Assembly: GCA_019285715.1 (NCBI GenBank)
Contig: CP079108.1
Location: forward strand, 2,681,001 to 2,745,000
Direction of reading: 5' to 3'
DNA length: 64,000 bases
DNA from: Sphingosinicellaceae bacterium
Lineage (GTDB): Bacteria; Pseudomonadota; Alphaproteobacteria; Sphingomonadales; Sphingomonadaceae
Shown here: piece after piece, positions 5,204-26,265 of the stretch
Position numbering within the stretch: position 1 is the stretch's first letter
How the letters are laid out: every line of letters starts with the position of its first letter
Notes under the pieces: generated by a model
What the model was told of the DNA's origin: nothing
The model's database searches: none
What the model saw: only the letters and a program-made list of their open reading frames with translations
Program-made: the position numbers and the translations under genes

Positions 5204-5205
5204 CC

Positions 5206-6042: not shown

Positions 6043-6046
6043 CGGA

Positions 6047-7042: not shown

Positions 7043-7043
7043 C

Positions 7044-8078
7044 TTACTTGGGCAGCGTGGCGCCCGAGATGGCCTTCCACTCGACCCGGACACGCTGGAT
7101 CGCTGCCGCCGGCAGCGGCAAATAGCCGAGCTGCTGGGCGAGCTTGCCGCCGTTCTTGAAGCTCCAGTCGAAGAACGCCAGGGCGGCGCTGGTGCCGGCG
7201 GCGTTGGTCGGCTTGGCGGGAACCAGGATGTAGGTCGCGCTGACGATCGGCCAGGTGTTGGCACCCGGCAGCGCCAGCATGTTGGCGACCGCGTTGGGGG
7301 CCTTGGCCCAGTCGGCCTGCGCCGCGGCAGCGTTGAAGCTGGCCGGGGTCGGGTCGATGAACTTGCCCGCCGCGTTGCTGAGCTTGGTCGTCGTCAGCTT
7401 GTTGGCGAAGGCATAGTTGAACTCGACGTAGCCGAGCGCGCCGACGGTGTTCTTGACGTTGCCGGCAACGCCGTCGTTGCCCTTGCCGCCCGAACCGGCG
7501 GGCCAGCTGATCGTCTTGCCGGCACCCAGCGTCCAGCCGTTGGCAGCCTTGGTCAGGTAGTTGGTGAAGATCGCGGTCGTGCCCGACGAGTCCGAGCGAT
7601 AGACCGGCGTGATCGGCATCGGACGCAGCGGCACGCCCTTGTTGAAGGCGACAATGGCGGGATCATTCCACTTGGTGATCTTGCCCTGGTAGATCGCCGC
7701 GATGATGTCGGGGGTCAGGCGCAGCTGGTTGGCCGCGACGCCGGGCAGGTTGACGATGATGACTTCCGAACCGATCACGGCGGGGAACTGGACGAGGCCG
7801 TTCGAAGAAAGGTCCTCGGCCTTCATCGCGTCGTCGGACGCGCCGAAGTCGACGGTGCGGGCCTTGATCTGGGCCTGGCCGGCACCCGATCCGATCGCCT
7901 GGTAATTCAGCTGGTTCTTGGTCGCGGCCTTATAGGCTGAGCCCCACTTGGCGTAGAGCGGCGCGGGGAAAGTGGCGCCGGCGCCGGTGATGTCAGCGGC
8001 GACTGCAGGAGCAGCGAGGGCAGTTGCGGCGAGCAGCGCTGCAATCGTGCGCATGCCTCGGGTCATCACGACGGTCAT
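7044..8078 (-). CDS. pstS: Phosphate-binding periplasmic protein PstS
   Basis: Periplasmic phosphate receptor of the Pst importer, 344 aa with signal peptide (cleavage near AVAAD). Family motifs are clear: ITGAGATFPAPLYAKW at the mature start, GSGAGQ for phosphate contact, and YRSDSSGTTAIFTNYL. It is the first gene of the leftward pst operon. ATG 8078 follows GAGGATTCGGA. A second Met (MRTIAALL, eight residues in) would give a more standard signal peptide. A Pho box lies about 65 bases upstream. Confidence 0.96.
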   Translation of the reverse strand: MTVVMTRGMRTIAALLAATALAAPAVAADITGAGATFPAPLYAKWGSAYKAATKNQLNYQAIGSGAGQAQIKARTVDFGASDDAMKAEDLSSNGLVQFPAVIGSEVIIVNLPGVAANQLRLTPDIIAAIYQGKITKWNDPAIVAFNKGVPLRPMPITPVYRSDSSGTTAIFTNYLTKAANGWTLGAGKTISWPAGSGGKGNDGVAGNVKNTVGALGYVEFNYAFANKLTTTKLSNAAGKFIDPTPASFNAAAAQADWAKAPNAVANMLALPGANTWPIVSATYILVPAKPTNAAGTSAALAFFDWSFKNGGKLAQQLGYLPLPAAAIQRVRVEWKAISGATLPK

Positions 8079-8771: not shown

Positions 8772-8934
8772 AAAGTTCCTCCTTGTTCGCCGTAACGACA
8801 CCTGTCCCGCCCGAGAGTTCCCCAACGCCGTAACAATCTGGTCGAAGCGTTCCGCGACAGGGTTGGGTGGAACCTTTCATTAACGATGTGATGCCCACTT
8901 GTGTTGCCCGCATACCACACCAATATCGAGCGTC

Positions 8935-11511
<2,577 letters not shown>

Positions 11512-11577: not shown

Positions 11578-12540
11578 ATGCGCCTGAGCGAGCCACTGCT
11601 GCGGCTGCCGATCGCCTTCGATGTCGAGGCAATGGCGGCCGAAGTCCGTGCGCTGCCGGCGGCGGCGTGGGTCCCTCACCCCAGCGCCCTGCCCGGCAAC
11701 GCCGCCGTGCGCCTCGTCACCACCAATGGCCAGATGAGCGATGCCACCGCGGCCCCGATGGCTCCGACCGCGCACCTGCGCGCCTGCCCCTACATCACCG
11801 AGGTGATGGCAGCGATCGGCGCAGTCTGGGGCCGCAGCCGGCTGATGCGCCTCGCGCCGGGAGCGGTGGTACCGCCCCATATCGACACGCACTTCTACTG
11901 GCGCACCCACGTCCGCCTCCATGTCCCGATCATCACGACCCCCGACGTGCTGTTCACCTGCGCCGGCGAGACCGTCCACATGGCGGCGGGCGAGTGCTGG
12001 GTATTCGACACCTTCTCGAGCCACCGGGTCCGCAACGGTGGCGCCAGCGCGCGCGTCCACCTGGTGCTCGACACCGTCGGCGGTGAGGGCCTGTGGGACC
12101 TGATCGAGGCCGCGCGCGCTGCCGCTCCCGGCACCAGTCCCGAGAGGCGGGTGGTCGTCCCCACCGGGTCGAGCTTCGACCGGCTGAGCTTCGAGCGCAC
12201 CAACACGGCAAGCCTGATGTCGCCCTGGGAACTCCGCTACCACGTCGACTTCCTGATTGCCGAGGCCCTGCCCGGCCAGCCGATCGAGGTCGTCGCCCGC
12301 CGGCTCGACCGGCTCGTCGCGGGCTGGGCGGGCGCGTGGGCGCGCTACGGCTCGTCGAACGAGGGTGCGTCGACCTATCGCGAGCTGCTCGTGGTGCTCG
12401 AGGCAGACCTGCCTCGCCTCGGTGGCGCGCACCTGCTGCTCCGCAACGGGCTGACCGTCGACCGCCAGATCGCGGAGATCGTCTTCACCCTGAACGCCGC
12501 GCTGCCGCCGGTCGTCGGGGTCCGGGCCGCGACGCACTAG
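11578..12540 (+). CDS. Aspartyl/asparaginyl beta-hydroxylase-like 2OG/Fe(II) oxygenase
   Basis: A 320 aa protein whose middle part (about residues 60-180) is a cupin-type 2-oxoglutarate dioxygenase of the Asp/Asn beta-hydroxylase family. The iron site reads PPHIDTHFYWRTHVRLHVPI, with an HxD pair, followed by SSHRVRN carrying the distal His and Arg. It would hydroxylate a protein, peptide or amino acid side chain. The C-terminal 130 aa are helical and unassigned. It has no signal peptide. The next gene, a sulfotransferase, begins 3 bases after its stop, suggesting that hydroxylation and sulfation act on one product. Confidence 0.83.
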   Translation: MRLSEPLLRLPIAFDVEAMAAEVRALPAAAWVPHPSALPGNAAVRLVTTNGQMSDATAAPMAPTAHLRACPYITEVMAAIGAVWGRSRLMRLAPGAVVPPHIDTHFYWRTHVRLHVPIITTPDVLFTCAGETVHMAAGECWVFDTFSSHRVRNGGASARVHLVLDTVGGEGLWDLIEAARAAAPGTSPERRVVVPTGSSFDRLSFERTNTASLMSPWELRYHVDFLIAEALPGQPIEVVARRLDRLVAGWAGAWARYGSSNEGASTYRELLVVLEADLPRLGGAHLLLRNGLTVDRQIAEIVFTLNAALPPVVGVRAATH

Positions 12541-12543
12541 ATC

Positions 12544-13410
12544 GTGGAAGACAGCCAGCGACGCGCCACCCACGACGCCGGCATCGACCGCCCGGTTTTC
12601 ATCCTAAGTTCCCCGCGCTCGGGCTCATCGCTGCTGTTCCAGACGCTGGCCCAGGCCCCGGAAGTCCACACCATCGGCGGCGAAAGCCACGGGCTTATCG
12701 AGCAAATCCCCGGCCTGCACCCCCGCGAACGCGGCTGGACCTCGAACCGACTGACCGCCGCCGATGCCACTCCGGCGATCACGCGCGAGATCGCGCAGCG
12801 CTTCCGCGCCTCGCTCCGCGACCGCGACGGCAACGCCCCGGTCGGTCGGGTCAGGATGATCGAGAAAACCCCCAAGAACAGCCTGCGCGTGCCGTTCTTG
12901 GACACGGTCTTCCCCGACGCACAGTTCGTCTTCCTGTACCGCGATGCCCGCGAAACCATGTCGAGCATGCTGGAGGCCTGGGGCTCCGGCCGGTTCCGGA
13001 CCTACCCGCTGCTGCCGGGCTGGCGGACGACGCCATGGTCGCTGCTGCTGGTTCCCGGCTGGCGCGAGTTGGGCAGCCTGTCCCTTCCGGAGATCGTCGC
13101 GCGGCAATGGGCGAGCACGATGGCCATCCTCCTCGATGATCTCGAGGCGATGGCGACGGGGCGCGTCGTGTCGGTGTCGTACGACGGCCTGCTCGCCGAC
13201 CCGCAGGCGACGCTGAGTTCGCTCAGTGCTCGCGTCGGCCTCGGCTGGGACCGCATACTGGCGGAATCGCTGCCGCTGTCCCCGACGGTCGTGTCGGCGC
13301 CCCGCCCCGACAAGTGGACCCGTCACGAGGCCGCGATCGCCGCAGTCTGGCCAATCGTCGCTACTGTCGACGCGCGCGCCCGCGAGGCACTCGCCCGCTA
13401 CGCCCGCTAG
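12544..13410 (+). CDS. PAPS-dependent sulfotransferase
   Basis: Sulfotransferase of 288 aa. The 5'-phosphosulfate loop is SSPRSGSSLLFQTL near residue 22. The 3'-phosphate region is FPDAQFVFLYRDARETMSSM, with the conserved Arg and later Ser. It would move sulfate from PAPS to a hydroxyl or amine. GTG 12544 is the only start that gives a full N-terminus and lies just after the hydroxylase stop. Unlike the two sulfotransferases at 20-24 kb, it lacks TPRs. The acceptor cannot be told from sequence. Confidence 0.85.
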   Translation: MEDSQRRATHDAGIDRPVFILSSPRSGSSLLFQTLAQAPEVHTIGGESHGLIEQIPGLHPRERGWTSNRLTAADATPAITREIAQRFRASLRDRDGNAPVGRVRMIEKTPKNSLRVPFLDTVFPDAQFVFLYRDARETMSSMLEAWGSGRFRTYPLLPGWRTTPWSLLLVPGWRELGSLSLPEIVARQWASTMAILLDDLEAMATGRVVSVSYDGLLADPQATLSSLSARVGLGWDRILAESLPLSPTVVSAPRPDKWTRHEAAIAAVWPIVATVDARAREALARYAR

Positions 13411-13422
13411 CCGCGACGCCCG

Positions 13423-13980
13423 CTAGCCGATCCGGCGCACTTTGGCGGAAGGACTACCGTCGATGCTCACCTTGAAGCTGCCGAACGCGCCGCGCTTGAT
13501 CGTCGCGGTCGAGCCGGGCTTGGGAGCGCGGCCGAAGATCATCGCGTCGGTCTGCTCCCACCGCGCCCCATCCTCGAGCGTGATCACCAAGGCACCCTCG
13601 GCATTGTGGCCGACGGTGCGGATCTTGGCGGTGATTTCCTCGACCTCGTCGGCGCGCGCCGCCTTGCGGATGTCCTTGTCGTCCTTGTCGTCGTGATTGA
13701 ACAGGCTGATGCTCGGCAGGCTGAAACCGAACAATTTGCGCTTGGCATCCTTGACCTGCTCGCGGTCGACCATGGCGATATCGCCGCGGGTGCGGGCCTC
13801 GCTCAACTGGCCAACATTGGCATCGTAGCACGCCAGCCGCGCCGTATTGTCGGTGATCGCCCGGCAGTCGAAGACCTTCTGCAGCGCCGGCGGGCTGTCG
13901 GAGGGGCTTCGCGCCTGGCTTGAACCGACACCGGCCACCAGCACTACTGCGGCGATGAGATACGACGGACGGACGGGCAT
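13423..13980 (-). CDS. Small secreted hypothetical protein
   Basis: A 185 aa protein with an N-terminal signal peptide and a CRAITDNTARLACYDANV segment. This Cys-x-x-I ... RLxCYD pattern recurs in small periplasmic proteins and in some type VI accessory proteins; no secretion genes are near. The middle is charged (HDDKDDKDIRKAARADE) and the C-terminus is predicted as a beta domain. ATG 13980 follows GAGG. The gene is convergent with the sulfotransferase gene and ends 12 bases from it. Function unknown. Confidence 0.75.
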   Translation of the reverse strand: MPVRPSYLIAAVVLVAGVGSSQARSPSDSPPALQKVFDCRAITDNTARLACYDANVGQLSEARTRGDIAMVDREQVKDAKRKLFGFSLPSISLFNHDDKDDKDIRKAARADEVEEITAKIRTVGHNAEGALVITLEDGARWEQTDAMIFGRAPKPGSTATIKRGAFGSFKVSIDGSPSAKVRRIG

Positions 13981-14150
13981 CGGCACCTCGAAGAACAACG
14001 GAGCCGTGCCGTACCCCAGCGTCGCGCGGCGCACAACGCGGGCTGTCGCACTGTTGCCAAACGGTAACAACGTGGTCGATTCTCATCGCAACTGCAGCAT
14101 GTCGATTGCTTGAGGCTTCTTTCGTCCTGTAGCTTGCTCCCATCGAATAA

Positions 14151-14178
14151 CGGCAAAACCGCACAACGCGGTTTGCCG
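14151..14178 (+). promoter_or_regulatory. Leader hairpin before the large TonB receptor
   Basis: CGGCAAAACCGC and GCGGTTTGCCG form an 11-pair stem with one bulged A around a 5-base loop. It lies 3 bases before the AGAAGGGG ribosome binding site of the gene at 14198. It is likely part of the 5' leader and could modulate mRNA stability or translation. Confidence 0.45.
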
Positions 14179-14197
14179 CTCAGAAGGGGTTCAAAGA

Positions 14198-17191
14198 ATG
14201 CACTATAGCTTGAAGCGGCGTCTGCTCGCGTCGACGATCGTTGCAGGTACTGCAATGATGTCGGTCCCGACCTTCGCGCAGACCGTCGAAGCGCCGATCG
14301 CGCCCGCGCCGACCGAAGCCACCAAGAGCGCCACGTCGGGCCAGGGCTCGTCGGACGAGACCATCGTCGTCACCGGCTCGCGCATCCCGCGTCCGGAGCT
14401 CGCTTCCGCCAGCCCCGTTACTGTCGTCGGTGCCGCCCAGATCAAGCAGTTCGGCACCACGCGCGTCGAAGATCTCCTGAACTCGCTGCCGCAGGTCTTT
14501 GCCGGCCAGGGTGGTAGCATCTCGAACGGCGCTACCGGCACCGCGACGATCGACCTTCGCGACCTCGGGCCGAGCCGCACCCTGGTGCTGATCAACGGCC
14601 GCCGCCTGATCTCGGGCGATCCGCGCACCACCGACCAGGCTGCGGACATCAACCTAATCCCAGCTTCCCTCATCAAGCGGATCGACGTTTCGACCGGCGG
14701 CGCTTCGTCGGTGTACGGTGCCGACGCCGTCTCTGGCGTCGTCAACTTCGTCATGGATACCGAGTTCGACGGTTTCAAGCTCGACAGCCAGTACAGCCTG
14801 TATAATCACGACAATCGCGCCGGGAGCGACATCACCGATGCTCTGAAGGCACGCGGTTACGGCTACCCGAGCGGCAACGTCACCGACGGTGCTACCTATG
14901 ATGCCACCGCCGTCTTCGGTGCAGGTTTCGATGACGGCCGTGGCCATGTCACCGCCTATGCTGGCTACCGCAGGATCAACTCGGTCTCCCAGGATCGCCG
15001 CGACTATTCGGCCTGCTCGCTGTCCGCCAACTCCACTGCCAGCGTTGCTGCAGGTGGCCGCAAGTACACCTGCGGCGGCTCAGGCACTTCGCCGGCGGGA
15101 TCGTTCTACCAGGTCGATACCAAGACCTATTACCATGTCGAGGGTAACCAGTTCGCTCCCGGTCGAGTTCTCTACAACTTCGCGCCGACCAACTATTACC
15201 AGCGTCCCGACGAGCGCTACACGGCAGGTTTCTTTGCACACTACGACGTGGCCGATGCTTTCAAGCCCTATATGGAATTCATGTTCCAGGATGATCGCAC
15301 TGTCGCGCAGATCGCGCCGTCGGGCGATTTCTTCAACACCGGGACGATCAATTGCGATAATCCGCTGCTTTCTGCGCAGCAGCAGGGGATCATCTGCACC
15401 CCCGGCAATACGACCGTCGATGACCGCGGCGTCACCCGGGCGGCCGTGTATGTCGGTCGCCGGAACGTCGAAGGTGGCGGTCGTCGCGATGACCTGCAGC
15501 ACACGACGTATCGTGGCGTGATCGGTGCCAAGGGCGAATTCGCCAAGGGCTTCAGCTACGATGCCTATTACCAGTACAGCCGGGTCGACTTCGCGCAGAC
15601 CTACCGCAACGACTTTTCGATCTCGCGTCTCGGCAAGGCGCTCGACGTCGTCGACGTAGGCGGCGTGCCGACCTGCCGCTCGGTTGTCGACGGCAGCGAT
15701 CCCGCCTGCGTTCCCTACAACATCTTCACGACGGGTGGCGTCACTTCCGCTGCTCTTAACTACCTGCAGATTCCGTTGTTCTCGCGTGGCCAGACCAGCG
15801 AGCAGGTCGCCGATGCCTCGGTCACGTTCCAGGGTGGCGAGTACGGCCTGACGAGCCCGTTGGCCAACGAGGGCTTTGCGATGAACGTCGGTGGCGAATA
15901 TCGTAAGGAGACGCTGAACTACGAAGTCGACACCAACTTCCTCAGCGGCGACGGTGCAGGCCAGGGTGGCCCGACCACGCCGAACTCGGGCACCTACAAC
16001 GTCAAGGAAGGCTTCGTCGAAGCGTCCCTGCCGCTGGTCCAGGAAAAGCCATTTTTCTACGACCTTCGCGCGAGCGCCGGTTACCGTTACTCGCACTATG
16101 ATATTGGCGGGGGCATCAACAAGTACAACACGGATACCTACAAGTTCGAGGGCTCGTGGGCCCCGGTCCGCGACCTGAAGTTCCGTGCCAGCTACAATCG
16201 CGCGGTTCGCTCACCGAACCTTTCGGAGCTGTTTGCGGCGCGGAGCATTGGTCTCGACGGTTCAAGCGATCCGTGCGCCGTCCTGCCTGATGAAACGGCC
16301 CCTCGCGCAACTGCAGCGCAATGCGCACTCACCGGCGTTTCCGCGGCACAGTACGGCACCTTCGCCGCTAACCCGGCCGGCCAGTACAACGGCCAGGTCG
16401 GCGGAAACCCGGACCTGAAACCGGAAATCTCGGACTCCTACACTGGCGGTGTTGTCTTGACTCCGAGTTTCCTGCGGGGCTTCCAGGCTACGGTTGACTA
16501 CTTCCAGATCCAGGTGAAACAGCAGATCGGCGTCATCGGCGCCGATACGATCATCAACTCGTGCATCAGTGGCAACACTTCGGTGTGCGGCCTGATTGTT
16601 CGCGGTGCCTCGGGTCGCCTCGATCGTCCGGACGGTTATGTCATCGATACGAACCTCAACACCGGTAAGGTAAAGACCGCTGGTATCGACGTTACGATGT
16701 CGTACAGCCAGCCGATCGGTCGCTTCGGTACGCTCGGCGCCTCGCTCGTCGGCACCTACCTCGACAAGTTCAAGGTGTCGCCGATCGGCTCGGATGCTTA
16801 CGAGTGCAGCGGTCACTTCGGTGCGCAGTGCGGTACTCCGCTGCCCAAGTGGCGCCACAATGCCCGCTTGACCTGGACGCTGCCCGAAGGTGTGAGCGTC
16901 TCGGGTGCATGGCGCTACTTCCGCAAGGTCAGCAATGAAGACGCCGGCACCACTGCAGTCGGCGGTAACCCGGGCAATGATCACATTGCGGCGCAGAGCT
17001 ACTTCGACCTCTCGCTGACGGTGCCTGTTGCGGACAAGTTCACCTTCCGCATCGGTACGAACAACCTTCTGGATCGTCAGCCTCCGGTCAACGGTCAGGC
17101 TTTGCCGGTCACCGAGAACGGCAACACCTTCCCGCAGGTTTACGACGCCCTCGGCCGCTACATCTACGTCGGCGTGACACTCGACCTCTAG
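14198..17191 (+). CDS. Large TonB-dependent receptor (peptide/glycan class)
   Basis: Outer membrane receptor of 997 aa. The signal peptide ends near TFAQT, followed by the TonB-box-like ETIVVTGSRIPR. The plug includes TIDLRDLGPSRTLVLINGRR and TGGASSVYGADAVSGVVNF, typical of the large receptors that sphingomonads and Caulobacter use for peptides, glycans or plant compounds rather than siderophores. A barrel with FRASYNRAVRSPNLSELF and NPDLKPEISDS follows. Codon choice is noticeably richer in T-ending codons than in neighbouring genes, which may mark strong expression or a different history. It has a leader hairpin and its own terminator. TPR hydroxylases follow, so it may feed or display their substrate. 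Confidence 0.92.
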   Translation: MHYSLKRRLLASTIVAGTAMMSVPTFAQTVEAPIAPAPTEATKSATSGQGSSDETIVVTGSRIPRPELASASPVTVVGAAQIKQFGTTRVEDLLNSLPQVFAGQGGSISNGATGTATIDLRDLGPSRTLVLINGRRLISGDPRTTDQAADINLIPASLIKRIDVSTGGASSVYGADAVSGVVNFVMDTEFDGFKLDSQYSLYNHDNRAGSDITDALKARGYGYPSGNVTDGATYDATAVFGAGFDDGRGHVTAYAGYRRINSVSQDRRDYSACSLSANSTASVAAGGRKYTCGGSGTSPAGSFYQVDTKTYYHVEGNQFAPGRVLYNFAPTNYYQRPDERYTAGFFAHYDVADAFKPYMEFMFQDDRTVAQIAPSGDFFNTGTINCDNPLLSAQQQGIICTPGNTTVDDRGVTRAAVYVGRRNVEGGGRRDDLQHTTYRGVIGAKGEFAKGFSYDAYYQYSRVDFAQTYRNDFSISRLGKALDVVDVGGVPTCRSVVDGSDPACVPYNIFTTGGVTSAALNYLQIPLFSRGQTSEQVADASVTFQGGEYGLTSPLANEGFAMNVGGEYRKETLNYEVDTNFLSGDGAGQGGPTTPNSGTYNVKEGFVEASLPLVQEKPFFYDLRASAGYRYSHYDIGGGINKYNTDTYKFEGSWAPVRDLKFRASYNRAVRSPNLSELFAARSIGLDGSSDPCAVLPDETAPRATAAQCALTGVSAAQYGTFAANPAGQYNGQVGGNPDLKPEISDSYTGGVVLTPSFLRGFQATVDYFQIQVKQQIGVIGADTIINSCISGNTSVCGLIVRGASGRLDRPDGYVIDTNLNTGKVKTAGIDVTMSYSQPIGRFGTLGASLVGTYLDKFKVSPIGSDAYECSGHFGAQCGTPLPKWRHNARLTWTLPEGVSVSGAWRYFRKVSNEDAGTTAVGGNPGNDHIAAQSYFDLSLTVPVADKFTFRIGTNNLLDRQPPVNGQALPVTENGNTFPQVYDALGRYIYVGVTLDL

Positions 17192-17217
17192 TCGCGAAGA
17201 CGCTGACGAAACCGGGA

Positions 17218-17249
17218 ACGGCGGGCCGCAAGGTCCGCCGTTTCTTTTT
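17218..17249 (+). terminator. Rho-independent terminator after TonB receptor
   Basis: A stem of 10 pairs (ACGGCGGGCC / GGTCCGCCGT, one G-U) closes a GCAA tetraloop and is followed directly by TTCTTTTT. This is a textbook intrinsic terminator 26 bases after the receptor stop. It suggests the receptor is made from a largely separate mRNA from the hydroxylase genes at 17276. Confidence 0.88.
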
Positions 17250-17275
17250 GTTTCGCGCTCTGGCAGTTGATCCGC

Positions 17276-18472
17276 ATGGCTTCGACCGACCCTGACATCA
17301 TCGACCCGGACATCGCGGCGCTGGATGCGGTCGAGGTCCAGGCTGACCGCGCTGCGTCAAGGGGCGACTTTGCTGCAGCGCAGGCGCTGTTAGCGCGCGT
17401 CGTCGAAGCTTCGCCGGCCCGCGTCGACACGTGGCTGAAACTCGCCGCGACACGACGCGCCGCCCGCGATCTTCCCGGTGCGCTCGCTGCAGTGGCCGGA
17501 GCGTTGAGCGTCGACCCATTGCATTTCATGGCGCTGCTCAGCCGCGCCAACCTGCTCGAAGCAACCGGCGCCGGGGCCGAAGCGGCGCGCACGTATTCAC
17601 ACGCCCTCGCCCAACTCGTCGACGGCGCGCCCGTGCCGGCGCAACTGACGCAGGCCGTCGCGCACGCCAGGACCCGCGTCGAGGCCTACCAACGGGGCGT
17701 CGCCGCCGCTTGGGACAGTGCTCTGGCGCAGGACCCGACATTATCGGATCTCGAACGCGCCAACCTCGAGCGCTTCAAGTCGAACGCGCTGCGCCGCACC
17801 AGGGTCTTTCACTCCGAACCAACGCATTACCATTTCCCGGGCCTGGTCGAGCGCGAGTTCCATCGCCGCGACGATGTCCCGTGGCTGGGCATGCTGGAGG
17901 ACGCCACGCCGGCGATCCTGGCCGAGCTGACCGCGCTCCTCGAGCACCAATCGGCGCGGGCCGAGCCCTATATCAGTTATGCGCCGGGCACGCCGGTCCG
18001 GCAGTGGTCGGGGCTCAACAATTCGCTCGACTGGACTGCGTTCCACCTGCTCCACGGCGGGCGCGTCGTCGACGAGAACGCCACGCGCTGCCCCGAGACG
18101 ATGGCGCTGCTGGCGCGGATCGACCAGCCGCGGATCGCCGGCCGCTCGCCGAACGCAATGTTCTCGTTGCTCCGCCCGCACACCCGGATTCCGCCGCACA
18201 CCGGAATTGCCAACACCCGCCTGGTTTGTCACCTGCCCCTGATCGTGCCCGACGGTTGCTGGTTCCGCGTCGGTGCCGAGCGCCGCGAGTGGCGCGTCGG
18301 CGAGGCGTTCGTCTTCGACGACACGATCGAACACGAGGCCGCGAATGACAGCGACGAACCGCGGATCGTGCTCATCCTCGACCTCTGGCACCCCGGGCTG
18401 AGCCGCGCCGAATGCGCCGCGGTCGCGCGTGTCATGGAAGCCGACGAGGCCGGTCACGGGGCCGGGCTGTGA
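17276..18472 (+). CDS. TPR-fused aspartyl/asparaginyl beta-hydroxylase
   Basis: A 398 aa protein. The first half (about 10-150) has TPR-like helices; the second half (about 190-385) is an Asp/Asn beta-hydroxylase domain. The iron site is IPPHTGIANTRLVCHLPLIVP followed by IEHEAANDSD and a WHPGLS end. The HxG in place of HxD matches mammalian AspH, where only two histidines hold the iron. WSGLNNSLDW and CPETMALL are also family-like. No signal peptide is seen, so it acts in the cytoplasm. ATG 17276 is preferred over TTG 17267, although no clear ribosome binding site precedes either. The next gene starts 10 bases after its stop. Confidence 0.85.
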   Translation: MASTDPDIIDPDIAALDAVEVQADRAASRGDFAAAQALLARVVEASPARVDTWLKLAATRRAARDLPGALAAVAGALSVDPLHFMALLSRANLLEATGAGAEAARTYSHALAQLVDGAPVPAQLTQAVAHARTRVEAYQRGVAAAWDSALAQDPTLSDLERANLERFKSNALRRTRVFHSEPTHYHFPGLVEREFHRRDDVPWLGMLEDATPAILAELTALLEHQSARAEPYISYAPGTPVRQWSGLNNSLDWTAFHLLHGGRVVDENATRCPETMALLARIDQPRIAGRSPNAMFSLLRPHTRIPPHTGIANTRLVCHLPLIVPDGCWFRVGAERREWRVGEAFVFDDTIEHEAANDSDEPRIVLILDLWHPGLSRAECAAVARVMEADEAGHGAGL

Positions 18473-18482
18473 GAGCGTCACG

Positions 18483-19991
18483 ATGACCGCGACAGCGGCA
18501 ACCCCTTCATTCGAGCAACTATTCGAGGCTGTGCGCCGCCCAAGTCCCGACAGATCGGTGGCAGCCAACCTCGGACTGCGTGCCCTCGACGAGCGCCGGG
18601 AGGAGGACGTCCTGCCCCTGCTGGCGGTGCTCGCCGCGCAGGTGCCGCTCGATGCCACGCTGCTCCATGTCGTGGGCCTGCTGCACCGCGCCGTCGGTGA
18701 CCACGTCGCTGCCCTCGAAGCGCTCGACCGCGCCGTCGGACTGACACCGGGCAGTGCGCGCCTGGTCCATGCCCGCGCCCACACCGCCATTGAGGCAGGC
18801 GTGGAAAGCCTCGGCTGGTTCGAGCGCGCACGACGACTGGCCCCGAACGACGGCGACATCATCCTCGGGCATGCTGCCGCAATGCTCGCCGCCGGCGATG
18901 AGTCGGGTGCCGACGCCTTGCTCGCCGGCATGCTTCGGACGCACCCAGGCTGGCTGGCTGGCCATTCGACGCTGATCCGCCTGCGTTTTGCCGCTGCGGG
19001 GGTAGACCGGGCGCTTGACGAACTCGATGCGGCGATTGCCAAGGCACCCCGGGACGCGCGGCTCCACGACCTGAAGATCATGGCGCTGCACCGGTCGGGA
19101 TTCGGCGAGCTGGCGATGGCGGCGATCGCCGCTGCGAGGCCGGAACTCGGCGACATTCCGATGCTGATTGCGTCGACGGCGATGGTCGCGACCGAGCATG
19201 GCCAACTTGCCGCGGCAGACGCCGCCTTCGCCCGGCTCGATCCGCTCGCTGCCCCGTCGCTCGCGTTGCACTGGCTTCGTCACCTGCTGCGGAGGAAGGA
19301 GCCGGAGCGGGTTGCGGCCATCGCGGAGGGCCTGCCCAAGGCTTTGGACGAGACCGCGAGACCGTATCTGTCGCTGGCCTGGCGGCTGACCGGGGACACG
19401 CGCGCGGCCTGGCTCGACGACGACCGCTTCATCAAGATCATCGACTTCGGGGAGGACTGGCCACTGCTGGCACCGCTCGCCGACGCCCTGCGCCCGCTTC
19501 ACCTGACCCGGCACCAACCACTGGACCAGTCGGTCCGCGGCGGCACCCAGACCGATGGCCCGCTGTTTTCGCGGATCGATCCGGCCATTCGTGCGGTCCG
19601 CAACCGCGTTTTCGCAGAGGTTGCCTCCTATATTGCCGCGCTGCCGCTGCCGGGTACGCCGCATCCGTTTCTGGCGCGCATCCCGCGACGGCCACGCTTT
19701 GCGGGCTCGTGGTCGGTCCGGCTCACCGATGGCGGATTTCACGAACCGCACGTCCATACAGAGGGTTGGCTAAGCTCGGCTTTCTACGTTGCGATACCAC
19801 CGAGCGCGCGCGGCGACGCCGGCTTTCTAACTCTTGGTGAGCCGCCGGCGACCCTTGGGCTCGATTTGCCGCAGCACCGGATAATCGCAGCCCGACCGGG
19901 CCGGCTGGTCCTGTTTCCCTCGACGAGCTGGCACGGTACCCGCGCATTCCCGACCGGCGAACGGCTCACGCTCGCCTTTGACATTGCCTGA
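18483..19991 (+). CDS. TPR-fused putative 2OG-Fe(II) oxygenase
   Basis: A 502 aa protein. Residues 1-350 form repeated TPR-type helices. The last 130 residues are a putative 2OG-Fe(II) oxygenase of the FeII_Oxy_5 type. Key residues are HEPHVHTEGWLSSAFYVAIP (metal-binding His) and LVLFPSTSWHGTRAF (distal His and 2OG-binding Arg). It is the second hydroxylase in a two-gene unit with 17276 and differs from it in its catalytic fold class, so the pair may modify different positions of one substrate recognised by the TPRs. ATG 18483 follows GAGAG. Confidence 0.84.
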   Translation: MTATAATPSFEQLFEAVRRPSPDRSVAANLGLRALDERREEDVLPLLAVLAAQVPLDATLLHVVGLLHRAVGDHVAALEALDRAVGLTPGSARLVHARAHTAIEAGVESLGWFERARRLAPNDGDIILGHAAAMLAAGDESGADALLAGMLRTHPGWLAGHSTLIRLRFAAAGVDRALDELDAAIAKAPRDARLHDLKIMALHRSGFGELAMAAIAAARPELGDIPMLIASTAMVATEHGQLAAADAAFARLDPLAAPSLALHWLRHLLRRKEPERVAAIAEGLPKALDETARPYLSLAWRLTGDTRAAWLDDDRFIKIIDFGEDWPLLAPLADALRPLHLTRHQPLDQSVRGGTQTDGPLFSRIDPAIRAVRNRVFAEVASYIAALPLPGTPHPFLARIPRRPRFAGSWSVRLTDGGFHEPHVHTEGWLSSAFYVAIPPSARGDAGFLTLGEPPATLGLDLPQHRIIAARPGRLVLFPSTSWHGTRAFPTGERLTLAFDIA

Positions 19992-20067
19992 CAGACTTGC
20001 AAGATAGCCACTTCGCGACCAGCACTATCGATATTGGCTGGTGGCTGTGTGCCAGACAGGTGGTCCT

Positions 20068-20313
20068 ATGTTCAAGTTCTTGATTGTTACTGCGATAGCC
20101 CTTTCTGCCACCGCGCCGGCTCTGGCACGGTCACAGACCGACAGGAAGCCACAGGATCCCAACCGGATTGTTTGCCGCACGAACGAGGTGCTCGGCAGCC
20201 GGTTGCAGACCCAGAAAACCTGCATGACGGCTTCGGAGTGGGATCGGCTCGAGCACAGTCAGCGCGAGACCGTCGAGCGGGTTCAGTCGTTGCGGACGAC
20301 GAACAGTCAGTGA
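20068..20313 (+). CDS. Small secreted hypothetical protein with two cysteines
   Basis: An 81 aa exported protein. The signal peptide ends near ALARS. The mature part, about 55 aa, has NRIVCRTNEVLGSRLQ and KTCMTASEWDRLEH, so two Cys could form a disulfide. I recognise this as the kind of small periplasmic protein common in sphingomonads, but no function is known to me. ATG 20068 follows AGGTGG; an upstream GTG would spoil the signal peptide. It ends 19 bases from the convergent sulfotransferase gene. Confidence 0.72.
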   Translation: MFKFLIVTAIALSATAPALARSQTDRKPQDPNRIVCRTNEVLGSRLQTQKTCMTASEWDRLEHSQRETVERVQSLRTTNSQ

Positions 20314-20332
20314 TGGCAGGCTACGGCGTCGT

Positions 20333-22390
20333 TCAGTCGACGTCGTACCCCATCCGCTCTATCCACGGGCGCAGTATCGGCATGACCGGTGCCATGTGCT
20401 CGCGGTAGCGTCGCCAGCGGCCCTTGGCCCGGGTGTAGATCGGCTCGGCGACCTGCGCATAGCTCGGCGAACCGATGTACCCCCGGGCCGATGCACTCGA
20501 TTGGTGGGCGAGCAGCTTGTCGGTCCACTTCAGCCCGGCAAAGCTTGCCAGGCGCCGCAACTCGGTTTCGGGATCGGCGATCAGCGTTTCATAGCGAATG
20601 GTATGGACCGCTATCGGCAGGACCGTCGTGCAGCGCTCCCAAAACGCCAGCACGCGGTCGTACAGGCGGGCGGTGCCGGTGAAGCTGAAGAAGCTCGCGA
20701 CCCGGCTGTCCATTTGTGCGCTGGTGATGAAGCAGCTTAGCACGACATCGCATGGGTGCCGCTCGACGAAGATGAAGCGCGCGTCGGGGAACAGGCGGTG
20801 CAGGAGCGGCGCATTGCCCAGCGCAAGCGGGTGCTTGTCGACGATCAGCCGGCTGCCGGCATCGGGGCTCAGTTTGTCGACCTCCTCGAAGTAGCGGGCG
20901 CGGAGACGTTCGATGTCAGCGGCCGACAACGAGGCGATGTGCTCGACCGGTCCCGCCAGCGCGGCGACCCTGTCGATTGCCGGCCCCTCCTCGATCACCG
21001 CCGCATCCGGGTGGCCGCTGAGCATGGTGTCGATGAGCGTCGTGCCGGAGCGCGGGAAGCCGAAGATGAACAGCGGTGCCGGTCGCCGGGATGCTGGAGC
21101 GGGCGGACCCCACGATGCGTACCATGCCGGGGACAGAATCTCGCGAATCCGGCGGAAGGTCTCGAGATAGCCGGAAGCCGCCTGCGCCGATCCGACAGCC
21201 GCCTCGGCAAGGCGGTCGTTCGCCTCCGAGAACGCGGCGAATGCAGCGTCGGTGTCGCCGAGCCGGTCCGCAAGGTCGCCGATCAGTTGGGCACGCGCCA
21301 CCGCGTCGTGATCGGCGGGCGAACGACGCGCGGCGGCGAGGGCCTCGTCGAACTTCCCCTCGTTGCGCAACGCCTGCGCCCGCATCAGCGCAGTCGCTTC
21401 GGGGCTGACCCCCAAGGCCTCGGCTTCATCGAGCAGGGCCAGCAACTCGGTCGTCTGGTTCAACCGTTCGAGTACCTTGGCGAGTCCGAGCAGGGCCGGG
21501 TGCAGGTCCGGGCGCACGGCAAGCGCGGCGCGGAAGCTGATACCGGCCCGTTCGGGCGCCTTGCAGGTGAATTCAAGGTCGCCGATCTCCGCGAGAATTT
21601 CGGCGTTGCCCGGTGCCGCCGCTCGTGCTGTGGCGAGCGCGACCAAGGCTTCGTCGTCGCGGTCGAGGCCGGTCAGCCCGCGACCCAGCTCGAGTTGAGC
21701 CGCTGCGTCCTCGGGAACACGCGCAACCGCTTTGCGGGCGGCCTCGACGGCGCTGGCAAAGTCCCGGGCAGCAGCATAAGCGCGCGCCAGGTTGATCCAG
21801 TAGGCGCTGGCAGTCGGGCGCAGCGCAGTCGCCCGCTGGAGCGCCGCCGTAGCACCGGCATAATCCCCGGCCGCCAGCCGAGCGACGCCAAGGCCGTCCC
21901 AGCTTTCGAAGTCGCCGGCGTCGGCGCGGGTCAGCTGTTCGAACAGCACGCCTGCTTCCTCGGCGCGGGTTTGACGCGACAAGGCGTGCGCGCGGATCCG
22001 TTGCATCTCGCGTCCCGCTGGCGTCGCGACCGAGGCAAGCGGCGCCGCGACCTCGTCCGCTTCGACCAGCGCGCCGGACGCGAGCAGCGCCCGCGCCAGC
22101 TCGACCTTGGCACCCAGCTCGCGCGGAGCCGCCGCAACGGCACGTCGTAGATGCGGGATGCCGCGCTGGAGGTCGCCCGCCCGGCAGCAGAGCATCCCAA
22201 CGAACAACGCCAACGGAGCGTCGGGCGAACCACCGGCAAGCACCGCTTCGCCAGCAGCGATCGCTCCACGAATGTCTCCCGCCTTGGCAAGCGCCAGCAC
22301 AGTTCCAGCCTGGCCCTCGGACCGGGTCACCGGCGGCACCGTCGTTCGAGTTGCGCCAGCCCGACGGCGTTCATCACGACGGCGTGGCAC
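20333..22390 (-). CDS. TPR-fused sulfotransferase (long form)
   Basis: A protein of up to 685 aa. About 400 residues of tandem TPRs precede a sulfotransferase domain. The PAPS loop is FIFGFPRSGTTLIDTML; the second nucleotide-binding region is LFPDARFIFVERHPCDVVLSCF. The C-terminal SYAQVAEPIYTRAKGRW is typical of TPR sulfotransferases. TPRs likely select a peptide or protein acceptor, as in tyrosylprotein sulfotransferase-like enzymes; this is inference. The start is uncertain: GTG 22390 overlaps the previous gene by 17 bases and has no clear ribosome binding site. It is last in a leftward unit after 22374-23825. Confidence 0.83.
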   Translation of the reverse strand: MPRRRDERRRAGATRTTVPPVTRSEGQAGTVLALAKAGDIRGAIAAGEAVLAGGSPDAPLALFVGMLCCRAGDLQRGIPHLRRAVAAAPRELGAKVELARALLASGALVEADEVAAPLASVATPAGREMQRIRAHALSRQTRAEEAGVLFEQLTRADAGDFESWDGLGVARLAAGDYAGATAALQRATALRPTASAYWINLARAYAAARDFASAVEAARKAVARVPEDAAAQLELGRGLTGLDRDDEALVALATARAAAPGNAEILAEIGDLEFTCKAPERAGISFRAALAVRPDLHPALLGLAKVLERLNQTTELLALLDEAEALGVSPEATALMRAQALRNEGKFDEALAAARRSPADHDAVARAQLIGDLADRLGDTDAAFAAFSEANDRLAEAAVGSAQAASGYLETFRRIREILSPAWYASWGPPAPASRRPAPLFIFGFPRSGTTLIDTMLSGHPDAAVIEEGPAIDRVAALAGPVEHIASLSAADIERLRARYFEEVDKLSPDAGSRLIVDKHPLALGNAPLLHRLFPDARFIFVERHPCDVVLSCFITSAQMDSRVASFFSFTGTARLYDRVLAFWERCTTVLPIAVHTIRYETLIADPETELRRLASFAGLKWTDKLLAHQSSASARGYIGSPSYAQVAEPIYTRAKGRWRRYREHMAPVMPILRPWIERMGYDVD

Positions 22391-23825
22391 CGATAGCGAA
22401 GTGGCGGCTGTAGTGCTGCGCGCGCCCTGAGGAACCTCGGTAGAGTGGCTGGCGGACCTGCCAATTGCTGGCGGTACGGACCACCTGCGGGGTGGCGGGA
22501 CGGTCGAGCATGCCGGGCTCGGCCTCCAGTCCGCAGAATGCGACCAATGCGTCGACCGTTGCGGCCGGGTCGGCCACCAGCCGGTCGTAATCGAGCTCGA
22601 AGATGTCGCCGGGATAGGCGGCGCGCCAATGGTCCATCAATCGCTGGTGCTCGCGGTCGTAGTGGACGATGTCCTCGAGAGCCGTAGCGTAGGCAAGTTC
22701 GGGGGCGGCGTGCAGGAAATAGACCGACAGGCAATTGTCGAGCGTCGCGCGCGTCGTGTGCACGATCCGCGCGTCGGGCATCAGCGTCTTGATCAGGCCG
22801 ATGTGCAGGAAATTGTCGGGGCGCTTGTCGGTCAGGACGGTACCCGCCGGATGGCGACCGCCGACCTTGGCGAGATACTCGTCGCGCAACATGGCCAACT
22901 CTTCGCCGGAAACGCTCGCCACCGATTCCGGATAGGGCACGAGATGCTCGAGGACGAGCGTCGGCAATGCCCCGAGCTCGCCGCCGGCAACGACCCTGCT
23001 GTGGCGCGCGAGGATCTGCTCGGTCAGCGTCGAGCCGGAGCGGAACATCCCGCAGATGAAGATCGGCGACTGGGCACCGGCCTCACCGACGGGCCGATCG
23101 ACCTTGGCGGGAAAGACCTCGATCAGCCGGTCGACGAGCCGTGCCTGGGCCTCCCGGTCGTAGCGCAGCCCGGCATTGGCAGCGAATTCGCGACTGGCGC
23201 GGTTGGCGACCTGGTAGGCGCCAAACGCCGCGTCGTAGTCGCCGACCCGGTCGAGGGCGGCACCGAGGGCAAAGCCGAGATCGGCGCGGTCGACAAGGTT
23301 GGCATCGGGCCGCGAGAGAGCGTCGCGCAGCCGCCCCAGCAAGGCGTCATCGGAGCCTTTGATCGTGGCGAGCCCGGCCAGCCGGGCGAGCGCGAGCGGC
23401 AACTCGGGCTCGAGCGCAAGGGCATGCTCGTAGGCCTGGTGTGCCGGCTCCCGCTCGCCGTAATCCTCGTGCAGATTGCCGAGGTTGAGGAGCGCGGGGA
23501 CATAATCTGGATCGATCGCCAGCGCCGCTTCGAGTTCAGCGCGTGCCGCGTCGCTACGCCCGAGATCATCGGAGAAGATCACGCCGCGCTGGAGATGTAC
23601 CTCCTCCGGTCCGCTGATGCCGAGGTCGAGCGCGCGCTGATACGACGCCAACGCGGCCTCGGGCTGGCGCGCCCGGCGCTGCGAAATGGCGAGATTGAAC
23701 CAGCTGTCGGGCAGGTTCGGTTCGCGCGCGAGCAGCTTTTCGTAAGCGGCTATCGTCTCGGCCACGAATCCGGCCCGGAACAGGCCGGAGGCGTTGCCGA
23801 GCAACGCCTGGACTTCAGGGGTCAT
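22374..23825 (-). CDS. TPR-fused sulfotransferase (short form)
   Basis: A 483 aa protein with five or so TPRs (1-215) and a C-terminal sulfotransferase domain. The PAPS loop is FICGMFRSGSTLTEQIL and the later region is LMPDARIVHTTRATLDNCLS. The acceptor is unknown. It overlaps the M23 gene by ATGA and is followed by a second TPR sulfotransferase. The two share their architecture but clearly differ in sequence, so they are not a recent duplication. Confidence 0.86.
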   Translation of the reverse strand: MTPEVQALLGNASGLFRAGFVAETIAAYEKLLAREPNLPDSWFNLAISQRRARQPEAALASYQRALDLGISGPEEVHLQRGVIFSDDLGRSDAARAELEAALAIDPDYVPALLNLGNLHEDYGEREPAHQAYEHALALEPELPLALARLAGLATIKGSDDALLGRLRDALSRPDANLVDRADLGFALGAALDRVGDYDAAFGAYQVANRASREFAANAGLRYDREAQARLVDRLIEVFPAKVDRPVGEAGAQSPIFICGMFRSGSTLTEQILARHSRVVAGGELGALPTLVLEHLVPYPESVASVSGEELAMLRDEYLAKVGGRHPAGTVLTDKRPDNFLHIGLIKTLMPDARIVHTTRATLDNCLSVYFLHAAPELAYATALEDIVHYDREHQRLMDHWRAAYPGDIFELDYDRLVADPAATVDALVAFCGLEAEPGMLDRPATPQVVRTASNWQVRQPLYRGSSGRAQHYSRHFAIGATPS

Positions 23826-24667
23826 GGTTTAGTGGCCTCTGGCGCGCCCGGCATCGCGCCGACGAGCAATTGGGGGTCGATCTTCACGTCGTGCCAGGTC
23901 ATGCCCCAATGGAGGTGCGGCCCGGTCGAACGGCCTGTCGTGCCGATCGCGCCGATGGTCTGGCCGCGCTTGACCTGCTCGCCGATGACGACGTCGACCC
24001 GCGACAGGTGCAGGAATGCCGAGCCGAGGCCGTGGCCGTGGTCGATCATGACGAGGTTGCCCTCGAGGCTGAACAGCTGCCCGGCCTGGCGCACGATGCC
24101 GTCGGCCGGGGCGACGATCGGCGTGCCCGCGGGTGCCGCGATGTCGACGCCGTAATGCGGGCTGCTCGGCACACCGCCGAGGATACGCTGCGAGCCGTAA
24201 ACGCCGCTGATCCGGCCCTGTGCGGGCCATTCGAAGGCCTGGGTCCAGCCGGTTTCGCTGGTCTCGCCGGTGCGAGCGCCGGTGATCATGGCGAGTTCGG
24301 GCGCGCGCATCGCTTCGTATTCGGGGCTGGGGCCGGTGGTGGGGCGGTGCAGGCTCGGGATCGACTCGACCTGGTAGGTGCGTTTCTCGACGTCGACGGT
24401 GCGGGTCACGGCGCGACCATCGGCGAGCGTCGCGGTCAGGATTGCCGACGCGGGGGCATCACGCCCGAAGCCGACGACGAAGCGCCCGTCACCCGCGAGG
24501 CGGACCGGCACGTCCCCCAGCCTGAGCACGGACGTTCCCGGCGGCGCGATCCCGAACAGCAGGCCGCCCTGCTCCGCATGCCCGGCCAGGCTGATTTCAC
24601 CAGCCGGCACCGGCTTGGCGCAGCCGACGAGGAGCGCGAGCAGGATGCCCGCGATGGACTGCGTCAA
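23822..24667 (-). CDS. M23 family metallopeptidase lipoprotein
   Basis: A 281 aa cell-wall peptidase-like protein. A lipobox-like LLVGC near residue 16 suggests an anchored lipoprotein. The LytM domain at the C-terminus has the zinc motif SPHYGVDIAAPAGTPI (HxxxD) and GPHLHWGM (HxH), so catalytic residues are intact. It may cut peptidoglycan cross-links or act on envelope proteins. Its ATG overlaps the DUF2093 stop (ATGA), and it overlaps the sulfotransferase gene downstream, giving a four-gene leftward unit. Confidence 0.9.
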   Translation of the reverse strand: MTQSIAGILLALLVGCAKPVPAGEISLAGHAEQGGLLFGIAPPGTSVLRLGDVPVRLAGDGRFVVGFGRDAPASAILTATLADGRAVTRTVDVEKRTYQVESIPSLHRPTTGPSPEYEAMRAPELAMITGARTGETSETGWTQAFEWPAQGRISGVYGSQRILGGVPSSPHYGVDIAAPAGTPIVAPADGIVRQAGQLFSLEGNLVMIDHGHGLGSAFLHLSRVDVVIGEQVKRGQTIGAIGTTGRSTGPHLHWGMTWHDVKIDPQLLVGAMPGAPEATKP

Positions 24668-24897: not shown

Positions 24898-26265
24898 TCA
24901 GAACAACCTACCCTGCCGCGGCAGCGCCGTCGACACCGGCACTTCACCATCGGCGAATCCGAGCGACAGCACGGCCTCCGCGCGCGCCAGAGCGGCTGAC
25001 GTCACCGGCTTGCCGTCGGCGGTGCGCACGAGGGCGTAACCGCGCTTCATAACCTGCATCGGCCCGAGCGAACCGAGCAGTCGCGACGCCTGCCCAAGCC
25101 GTGCGCCGGCACGGTCACGACCGTTGATGAGGACGACCAGTCGCAGCGGCGTCGCGGTGCGGGTCAACTTCTGGCGGTCGTTCGCGATCAGGCCGCGCAT
25201 CGCCGGCTGCAGGCGACCGCTGATGCCGTCGTAGCGGGCGCGCCACCGGGCGGCTCCGGTGGTCAGCGAGCGGGGCAGGCGTTCGGCGAGCTCGTCGAAG
25301 CGCTGCTGGCGGAGGCCGAGCAAGGTCCGCGGGCTCGGCAGGCGGCGACCCAGGCCCTCGGTACGCTCGCGGCGCAGCTCGACACCGCGGCGGACGCAAC
25401 GGTCCTGCCGAAGCGCCATCGCGCCGAGACTGGCGCGGAGGTCGGCGAGCACCGGCACGGCGCGCTCGGCGGCGGCGGTCGGGGTCGGGGCACGGTGGTC
25501 GGAGGCGAAGTCGACCAGCGTGGTATCGGTCTCGTGGCCGACCGCGGTGATGACCGGGATGCCCGACGCGGCGACGGCGCGGACGACGGCCTCCTCGTTG
25601 AAGGCGGCGAGATCCTCGATCGAGCCACCGCCGCGCGCCAGGATCAGCAGGTCGGGACGCGGAATCGGGCCGCTGCCGTCGAGGGCATTGAACCCGGCCA
25701 GCGCGGCGACGACCTGCCCGACCGCGGTATCGCCCTGCACCGCGACGGGCCAGACGATGACGCGGCGCGGGAAGCGCTCGGCGAGACGGTGCAGGATGTC
25801 GCGTATGACCGCCCCGGTCGGCGAGGTGATGACCCCGATGACCTGCGGGATGTCGGGTAGCGGGCGCTTGCGGTCGGCGTCGAACAGGCCCTCCTCGGCC
25901 AGCTTGCGCTTGCGCTCCGCCAGCTGGGCAAGCAGCGCGCCGACGCCGGCCGGTTCCATGCGCTCGATGACGATCTGGTATTTCGACCGGCCCGGGTAGG
26001 TGGTGAGCTTGCCGGTGACGATGACCTCGAGCCCGTCCTCGGGCCGGAACGGCAGCGCGCCCGCGGTGGCCTTCCACATGACGCCGTCGATGACCGCGCT
26101 ATCGTCCTTGAGGCACAGGTAGACGTGGCCCGAGGCGGCGCGCTTGAAGCCGCTGATTTCGCCGCGGACCCTGACATAGCCGTACGCTGCCTCGACCGTG
26201 CGCTTGAGCGCGCCGGCGAGTTCGGAGACCGAATATTCGGGTGTGTTGATGCTGGGTGCGTTCAC
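24898..26265 (-). CDS. xseA: Exodeoxyribonuclease VII large subunit
   Basis: XseA, 455 aa, the catalytic subunit of a nuclease that degrades single-stranded DNA from both ends. The N-terminal OB fold (YVRVRGEISGFKRAASGHVYLCLKDD) is followed by the core GVITSPTGAVIRDILHRLAERFP, LILARGGGSIEDLAAFNEE and GHETDTTLVDFASDHRAPTPTAAAE motifs, all intact, then a helical C-terminus. The small subunit gene is not in the window. It diverges from the lipid kinase gene, with only 34 bases between starts. Confidence 0.97.
   Translation of the reverse strand: MNAPSINTPEYSVSELAGALKRTVEAAYGYVRVRGEISGFKRAASGHVYLCLKDDSAVIDGVMWKATAGALPFRPEDGLEVIVTGKLTTYPGRSKYQIVIERMEPAGVGALLAQLAERKRKLAEEGLFDADRKRPLPDIPQVIGVITSPTGAVIRDILHRLAERFPRRVIVWPVAVQGDTAVGQVVAALAGFNALDGSGPIPRPDLLILARGGGSIEDLAAFNEEAVVRAVAASGIPVITAVGHETDTTLVDFASDHRAPTPTAAAERAVPVLADLRASLGAMALRQDRCVRRGVELRRERTEGLGRRLPSPRTLLGLRQQRFDELAERLPRSLTTGAARWRARYDGISGRLQPAMRGLIANDRQKLTRTATPLRLVVLINGRDRAGARLGQASRLLGSLGPMQVMKRGYALVRTADGKPVTSAALARAEAVLSLGFADGEVPVSTALPRQGRLF

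Follow-up and report, generated by a model that had tools for sequence, protein, structure and literature searches.

Two-gene units in which a cytosolic enzyme acts on an exported surface protein are represented by Aah/AIDA-I and HMW1C/HMW1A, in which the enzyme is a glycosyltransferase. Among oxygenases, PiuC belongs to the 2OG-FeII_Oxy_3 family (PF13640) and contains no TPRs. In Pseudomonas aeruginosa, this 2OG oxygenase is encoded beside the TonB-dependent receptor (TBDT) gene piuA, and mutations in piuC raise the MICs of siderophore-conjugated antibiotics; there, PiuC is given a part in the expression of piuA and is not presented as a modifier of PiuA (PMC11878004). A 2OG oxygenase gene likewise adjoins a TBDT gene in the locus described here, and PiuA-PiuC is the nearest published parallel found. 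The oxygenases of this locus differ from the PiuC type in that they match PF05118 and PF13759, with no match to PF13640 (Pfam, E 0.01), and in that two of them carry TPRs. The Aah/AIDA-I and HMW1C/HMW1A units resemble what is proposed below in that a cytosolic enzyme acts on an exported protein, whereas their substrates are adhesins that become glycosylated and the modification proposed here is the hydroxylation or sulfation of TBDTs.

The initial annotation of this DNA regarded the locus as a candidate for an undescribed system. A search of the open-licence PMC literature found no account that connects TPR hydroxylases or sulfotransferases with TonB receptors, and the pairing appears to be undescribed in that literature. 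Pairings of receptor and enzyme recur in other bacteria, which suggests, short of proof, that chemical groups are added to the receptors or to proteins associated with them.

Gene content of the locus

The window (the whole stretch of 64,000 nucleotides that was analysed) comes from a genome that consists of one contig of 4.43 Mb. The locus lies between two landmarks assigned by Pfam, clpB (8899-11511, + strand; AAA_2/Clp_N), which is outside the system, and xseA (24898-26265, - strand), which encodes the large subunit of exonuclease VII. A third landmark, the M23 peptidase gene (23822-24667, - strand; Pfam), is common to many loci, and a 72-aa ORF is located between it and xseA. Pfam confirmed the genes of the initial annotation in both number and coordinates: a single large TonB receptor, three sulfotransferases and three 2OG/Fe(II) hydroxylases, with TPRs in two of the enzymes of each kind. 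The receptor gene (14198-17191, + strand; Plug 1.8e-20, barrel 6.8e-34) is followed on the same strand by a terminator-like hairpin (17214-17245; 14-pair stem and T run) and then by the first enzyme gene, which encodes TPRs and an Asp_Arg_Hydrox domain (17276-18472; Pfam 5e-44) and is referred to as the ASPH-like Asp/Asn beta-hydroxylase (TPR-AspH). The next gene on this strand encodes TPRs and a 2OG-FeII_Oxy_5 domain (TPR-2OG_Oxy_5; 18483-19991; Pfam 4.3e-16). The ORF limits of these two oxygenases are 17267-18472 and 18429-19991, and the ATG codons at 17276 and 18483 are the likelier starts by eye. Two TPR-containing TPST-like sulfotransferases (TPR-STs) are encoded on the - strand, at 20333-22390 (Sulfotransfer_3 9.8e-36; start uncertain) and at 22374-23825 (5e-36), the latter overlapping both the M23 gene and the neighbouring sulfotransferase gene.

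Two genes are additional to those of the initial annotation, and both products appear secreted by eye. The first (13423-14070, - strand) is divergent from the receptor gene, has a weak VasI match (E 0.0023), is present as a single copy in the genome (E 0.01) and contains conserved cysteines in a CYD context. The second, a small two-cysteine protein (about 20068-20313, + strand), has no Pfam match and one paralogue elsewhere in the genome. Because three of the five Sulfotransfer_3 matches and both PF05118 matches of the whole genome are located at this site, the clustering exceeds chance; the other two Sulfotransfer_3 genes are of the long TPR type, and each lies directly upstream of another TBDT gene. 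The suggested search for PAPS synthesis returned a single APS kinase gene, located elsewhere in the genome, which can supply PAPS. Outside this finding, a PBP_like_2 binding protein is encoded along with ABC transporter genes at 4373-8078 of the window.

The initial annotation had also included the TPR-less hydroxylase (11578-12540, + strand; PF05118 E 1.2e-17) and the adjoining TPR-less sulfotransferase (12544-13410, + strand; Sulfotransfer_3 1.1e-25), neither of which has a TPR match or was observed in the recurrent gene set. The nearest solved chains of this hydroxylase are the free-proline hydroxylases 1e5r (E 9.6e-6) and 4p7w (E 4.4e-5), and no match at 1e-15 is present in the one other genome of the genus that was searched; for these reasons, the pair was set apart from the module. 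The sulfotransferase has a weak TPST2 match (E 6e-4). The pair is probably a separate addition, with the absence of the hydroxylase judged from that one genome.

Relatives of ASPH and TPST among the TPR enzymes

The protein encoded at 17276-18472 matches the catalytic domain of human ASPH (E 1.1e-23), and in both proteins a single chain carries a TPR domain and, after it, a PF05118 oxygenase. In a structural model of this protein (pLDDT 93.5), human ASPH is matched with a Z score of 23.8 over the TPR and oxygenase domains (307 residues, rmsd 16), and the catalytic domain alone superimposes with an rmsd of 2.2 over 191 residues; the larger value is taken as a different interdomain angle from that of human ASPH. 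Residues H311, G313, H356 and R366, which form the pattern HxG...H...R, are invariant in 51 sequences and align with human ASPH. In this pattern, HxG...H supplies the iron ligands and the arginine binds 2OG, and this site is thus common to both proteins. The window protein differs from human ASPH in that no signal or membrane anchor is seen by eye, in that valine occupies the position of human Arg688 (the alignment used the R688Q variant) and in that an EGF-like substrate is not evident. Its domain order and its iron and 2OG residues would place it in the ASPH family, with hydroxylation of Asp/Asn as its predicted activity.

For the sulfotransferase domain of 20333-22390, the closest solved structures are protein-tyrosine sulfotransferases (E 8.5e-17, covering residues 9-253 of 255 in the domain), behind which the cytosolic sulfotransferases trail at E 0.01 and above. 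A single-sequence search with 22374-23825 reaches TPST only at E 0.66; by sequence alone, therefore, one of the two window TPR-STs (20333-22390) is clearly TPST-like. The model of 22374-23825 (pLDDT 93.7) matches TPST1 with a Z score of 19.2 over 231 residues (about 19 for TPST1/2). Residues R262, E283, K334 and S453 are invariant in 46 TPR-STs, whose profile also underlies the TPST assignment, and 20333-22390 was aligned with tick TPST. The roles of the 5'-PSB loop and of the catalytic Glu, Lys and Ser are known from work on TPST2. The PRSGTT loop, a Glu 21 residues further on, the Lys and the Ser are common to TPST1/2 and the TPR-STs, which differ from TPST1/2 in being fused to TPRs and presumably cytosolic. 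Residues and fold would thus assign the TPR-STs to the TPST family, and sulfation of tyrosine is their predicted activity. Bacterial RaxST was modelled on TPST (PMC6637879); the TPR-STs differ from TPST/RaxST in being linked to receptors and not to a raxX-like peptide gene.

The TPR-2OG_Oxy_5 protein has no significant relative among solved structures. In three loci (L229, L246 and L222), a methyltransferase-like gene is observed beside genes for a TPR-2OG_Oxy_5 protein and a TBDT, as identified by Pfam in L229 and by eye in the others.

The expectation of the initial annotation that the TPRs recognise proteins or peptides is supported by the closest solved relatives of the TPR enzymes, ASPH and TPST, which act on proteins. 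A glycan substrate, which had also been considered, is disfavoured by these relatives and by the conserved active sites; sugars offer no target for either Asp/Asn hydroxylation or Tyr sulfation.

Recurrence of receptor-enzyme pairings

The suggested comparison across sphingomonads revealed a recurrent set around a TonB receptor, which comprises a secreted VasI-like protein, the TBDT, a TPR-sulfotransferase, a TPR-Asp/Asn-hydroxylase, a TPR-2OG oxygenase and a small secreted protein. In sphingomonads this core is often located near xseA/M23 and clpB, and partial versions are present in Caulobacter, Nevskia, Duganella and Paucibacter. The best 80 AspH loci of a longer list were sampled from named genomes, with short contigs kept, by a query for which most of the sequences came from loci with a receptor; with that bias, HMM matches were obtained for the TBDT in 67 of the 80, the TPR-ST in 47, 2OG_Oxy_5 in 46 and the small secreted protein in 28, in addition to the landmarks xseA (22, some weak), M23 (18) and clpB (14). 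A TBDT frame of at least 350 aa is present in 66/80 and is the next gene in 33/80. In 17/80, the receptor and AspH occur with no match to a TPR-ST or Oxy_5; one such locus, from Paucibacter (L173), has ExbB and ExbD genes downstream.

The family was sampled with one genome per genus (59 genomes), of which 32 contain PF05118. Outside the OlsC/LpxO-like clade, a receptor is present in 13 of 31 PF05118 loci (one AspH counted per locus; L034, L037 and L072 omitted) and is the next gene in 7, compared with 0/6 for the OlsC/LpxO-like control loci. Pfam TPRs (TPR_19 or TPR_16) are found in at least 18 of these 31 proteins; TPR_19 is present in 12/13 of the receptor-linked proteins versus 6/18 of the receptor-less ones, at least 7 of which carry TPRs (TPR_16). 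In this sample, the TPR arm of PF05118 proteins goes with the receptor. The TPR-2OG_Oxy_5 protein occurs in 33/59 genomes and at 35 places, at which a TBDT lies within 3 kb in 26 and within 700 bp in 14, and is absent from the stretch in 6; no AspH or TPR-ST is found within 4.5 kb at 17 of the 26 TBDT-linked places.

The sulfotransferases were compared in groups hand-picked among the matches listed. The receptor is the next gene for 18/20 TPR-STs of group A, 10/20 of group B and 1/20 of the TPR-less controls, and it is present anywhere in the locus for 20/20, 15/20 and 5/20, respectively. The TPR-STs sampled are thus beside a TBDT, classical or Oar-like, in 28/40 cases versus 1/20 for the TPR-less enzymes (Fisher 1e-6), and TPR matches were obtained for at least 39/40 of the former and 0/20 of the latter. 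The Oar-like receptor class combines CarboxypepD_reg with an outer-membrane barrel. L099 (G036) contains a single frame of 991 aa with two sulfotransferase matches.

Receptors are also found paired with any one of the enzyme types in places where the other two are missing, and the three types therefore look like interchangeable modules, which argues against the fixed pathway of hydroxylation followed by sulfation put forward in the initial annotation. Scattering of the genes in relatives had been named there as a result that would speak against a system: the TPR core as a whole is not scattered, although receptor-less related hydroxylases are common (18/31). Among 18 close receptors (59 genomes; E up to 1e-150, counting the window receptor itself, with at most 14 candidates scored per genome), nine have at least one modifier and nine have none within the 7-18 kb examined, including L214, L216 and L223, which lie beside clpB. 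In light of these halves and of the many receptor-less AspH genes, a receptor does not need the modifiers, and hydroxylases of the AspH type are not confined to receptors.

Several neighbours of AspH-type genes recur in their own right. The small oxygenase at L148:10933-11592, which matches 2OG-FeII_Oxy_3 and is perhaps PiuC/YbiX-like, belongs to a cluster found near AspH genes in 9 loci (Pfam on L148 only). Additionally, a family of approximately 370 aa with no Pfam match is encoded beside the AspH gene at L048:10996-12099 and L064:10511-11638. In L055, a PF05118 hydroxylase gene lies beside a JmjC_2 gene and NamZ with no receptor, and related neighbours are present in about six loci.

The enzymes might have no joint function and lie only by chance beside an abundant class of receptor, given that TBDTs are numerous (62 first-look candidates in the source genome) and that many related hydroxylases occur elsewhere, e.g., beside JmjC and NamZ. 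This explanation is very unlikely in view of the low counts in the controls (1/20 TPR-less sulfotransferases and 0/6 OlsC/LpxO-like hydroxylases), the recurrence of receptor linkage with three enzyme types and the tracking of receptor and enzyme inside genomes. In a Mantel comparison of 38 receptor-ST pairs (receptors of at least 600 aa within 5 kb; L074, L086 and L101 left out by hand), r is 0.834 versus a mean of 0.438 on within-genome swaps in the eight genomes with several pairs (P 0.0006). As judged from this comparison, receptor and TPR-ST are inherited as units, which does not imply contact between them; linked inheritance alone can yield such a correlation.

Of the gaps between a TBDT gene and an enzyme gene, 42/54 contain a hairpin next to a T run, versus 21/205 for other gene pairs, and such a hairpin is also found in 10/19 cases in which the TBDT gene precedes another gene (not significantly different from 42/54, P 0.07); counts that join both sets hold a few duplicates, as L141/L052, L201/L061 and L195/L047 are the same loci sampled twice. 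Since TBDT genes with other neighbours are also often followed by a hairpin, it belongs to the receptor gene. Overall, the hairpin scan gave 9 hairpins versus a shuffle mean of 7.5, i.e., no excess, and sigma-70 and Rfam scans of the sequence yielded nothing informative. A terminator-like hairpin in this position could favour much receptor and little enzyme; that the enzymes are expressed by read-through is a guess.

Candidate substrates of the TPR enzymes

The window receptor contains both a plug and a beta-barrel (Pfam), as expected of a TBDT, and falls in a clade of 63 rows drawn from alpha-, beta- and gammaproteobacteria. Its nearest solved chains, BtuB and siderophore receptors, match the plug region only, and therefore no ligand is named. 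The contexts of the linked receptors vary and include GH32 with a Trp halogenase (L226), M14 (L238) and permease genes (the Nevskiaceae and Caulobacter loci). Because these contexts differ (sugar, peptide), the ligand is not the common factor; the receptor is the only thing common to the receptor-linked loci and is for this reason the first suspect as substrate. In L226 (G025:C161), the TBDT, Trp halogenase, GH32 and TPR-2OG_Oxy_5 genes occur in one locus, with 3.2 kb between Oxy_5 and the receptor, slightly more than the 3-kb limit of the count; the halogenase adds another type to the amino-acid-modifying enzymes encoded next to receptors.

The reading that we prefer, with slightly less than even confidence, is that modification by the TPR enzymes takes place in the cytosol before export, on the receptor or on an exported partner. 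In order of likelihood, the linked receptor ranks first as substrate and a co-encoded exported partner second. The enzymes are presumably cytosolic, with no signal peptide seen by eye. The TPR arm would hold the unfolded, export-competent polypeptide while the ASPH-like catalytic domain beta-hydroxylates Asp/Asn, 2OG_Oxy_5 oxidises another residue or the TPST-like domain sulfates Tyr using housekeeping PAPS. The modified protein would then leave via Sec and, if it is the receptor, be inserted by BAM. Such marks would adjust how ligands are bound or hide the cell surface from phage or bacteriocins. We know of no precedent for cytosolic hydroxylation or sulfation of a barrel protein. More tentatively, TBDTs may be modified by cytosolic TPR hydroxylases and tyrosine sulfotransferases dedicated to them. 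These enzymes would form a modular equivalent, in bacteria, of ASPH/TPST chemistry that decorates outer-membrane receptors before export and is inherited with them as cognate units in several proteobacterial classes. If so, outer-membrane receptors would carry post-translational marks of a kind so far not known on them and introduced by enzymes related to human ASPH and TPST; this would bear on ligand specificity, on resistance to phage and bacteriocins and on the reason why 2OG oxygenases such as PiuC adjoin receptor genes.

In eight receptors lacking modifiers (for one of which, the G024 row (L215), the last of two long ORFs was taken and may not be the right one), 1/45 conserved Asp/Asn columns and 0/19 Tyr columns are lost, no more than for other residue classes, and this comparison points to no target site. 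Column 674 was considered as a target site because, of the Asp/Asn columns conserved in AspH-linked receptors, it is the sole one lost in three AspH-less receptors. It was rejected because the close AspH-bearing relatives L134, L135, L161 and L163 share the Thr at this position, which is a clade trait.

A peptide, RiPP-like or an imported oligopeptide, could instead be modified, with the receptor importing the peptide or its metal complex. In another family genome, a TPR-less sulfotransferase and a short PF05118 hydroxylase occur with an asparagine synthase (L072:8099-13636), an enzyme typical of lasso-peptide clusters, and this is probably such a cluster. Permease genes (Pfam BPD_transp_1, matched on L167 only) and a binding-protein-like family recognised by eye are also found near TBDT-AspH in L167, L170, L171, L185 and L187, and less tightly in L178. 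Additionally, in a published table, neighbouring numbers are given to clusters of sulfotransferases, aspartyl beta-hydroxylase, PqqD, asparagine synthase and lasso B2 (PMC10040529). We nevertheless consider a peptide substrate unlikely. The source genome has no lasso B2 protein (PF13471; 0 matches at E 0.001), and the receptor linked to Oxy_5 in L226 lies with GH32, a sugar context. The conserved small precursor peptide anticipated in the initial annotation did not emerge either: no precursor family was recognised among ORFs of at least 50 aa (BLAST 1e-8, top 40 clusters; shorter or fast-changing ones would escape), save for the two secreted proteins, which are not obviously precursors.

Still less likely is that the enzymes act on the VasI-like or the small two-cysteine secreted protein, which then acts with the receptor. 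The VasI-like HMM matches in 45 of the best 80 AspH loci, including those of Caulobacter and Nevskia, and the cysteines conserved in that protein are consistent with this possibility, whereas receptor-enzyme loci without either secreted protein are common, and L214 pairs a receptor with a VasI-like gene without any modifier. The recurrent small families in the gene clustering are the VasI-like family, the small two-cysteine family and a 66-aa family, presumably DUF2093, which was set aside as a precursor peptide and taken as a landmark, as it lies beside xseA in 12 loci. Two further small families, of 59 and 70 aa, are present in 5 loci each.
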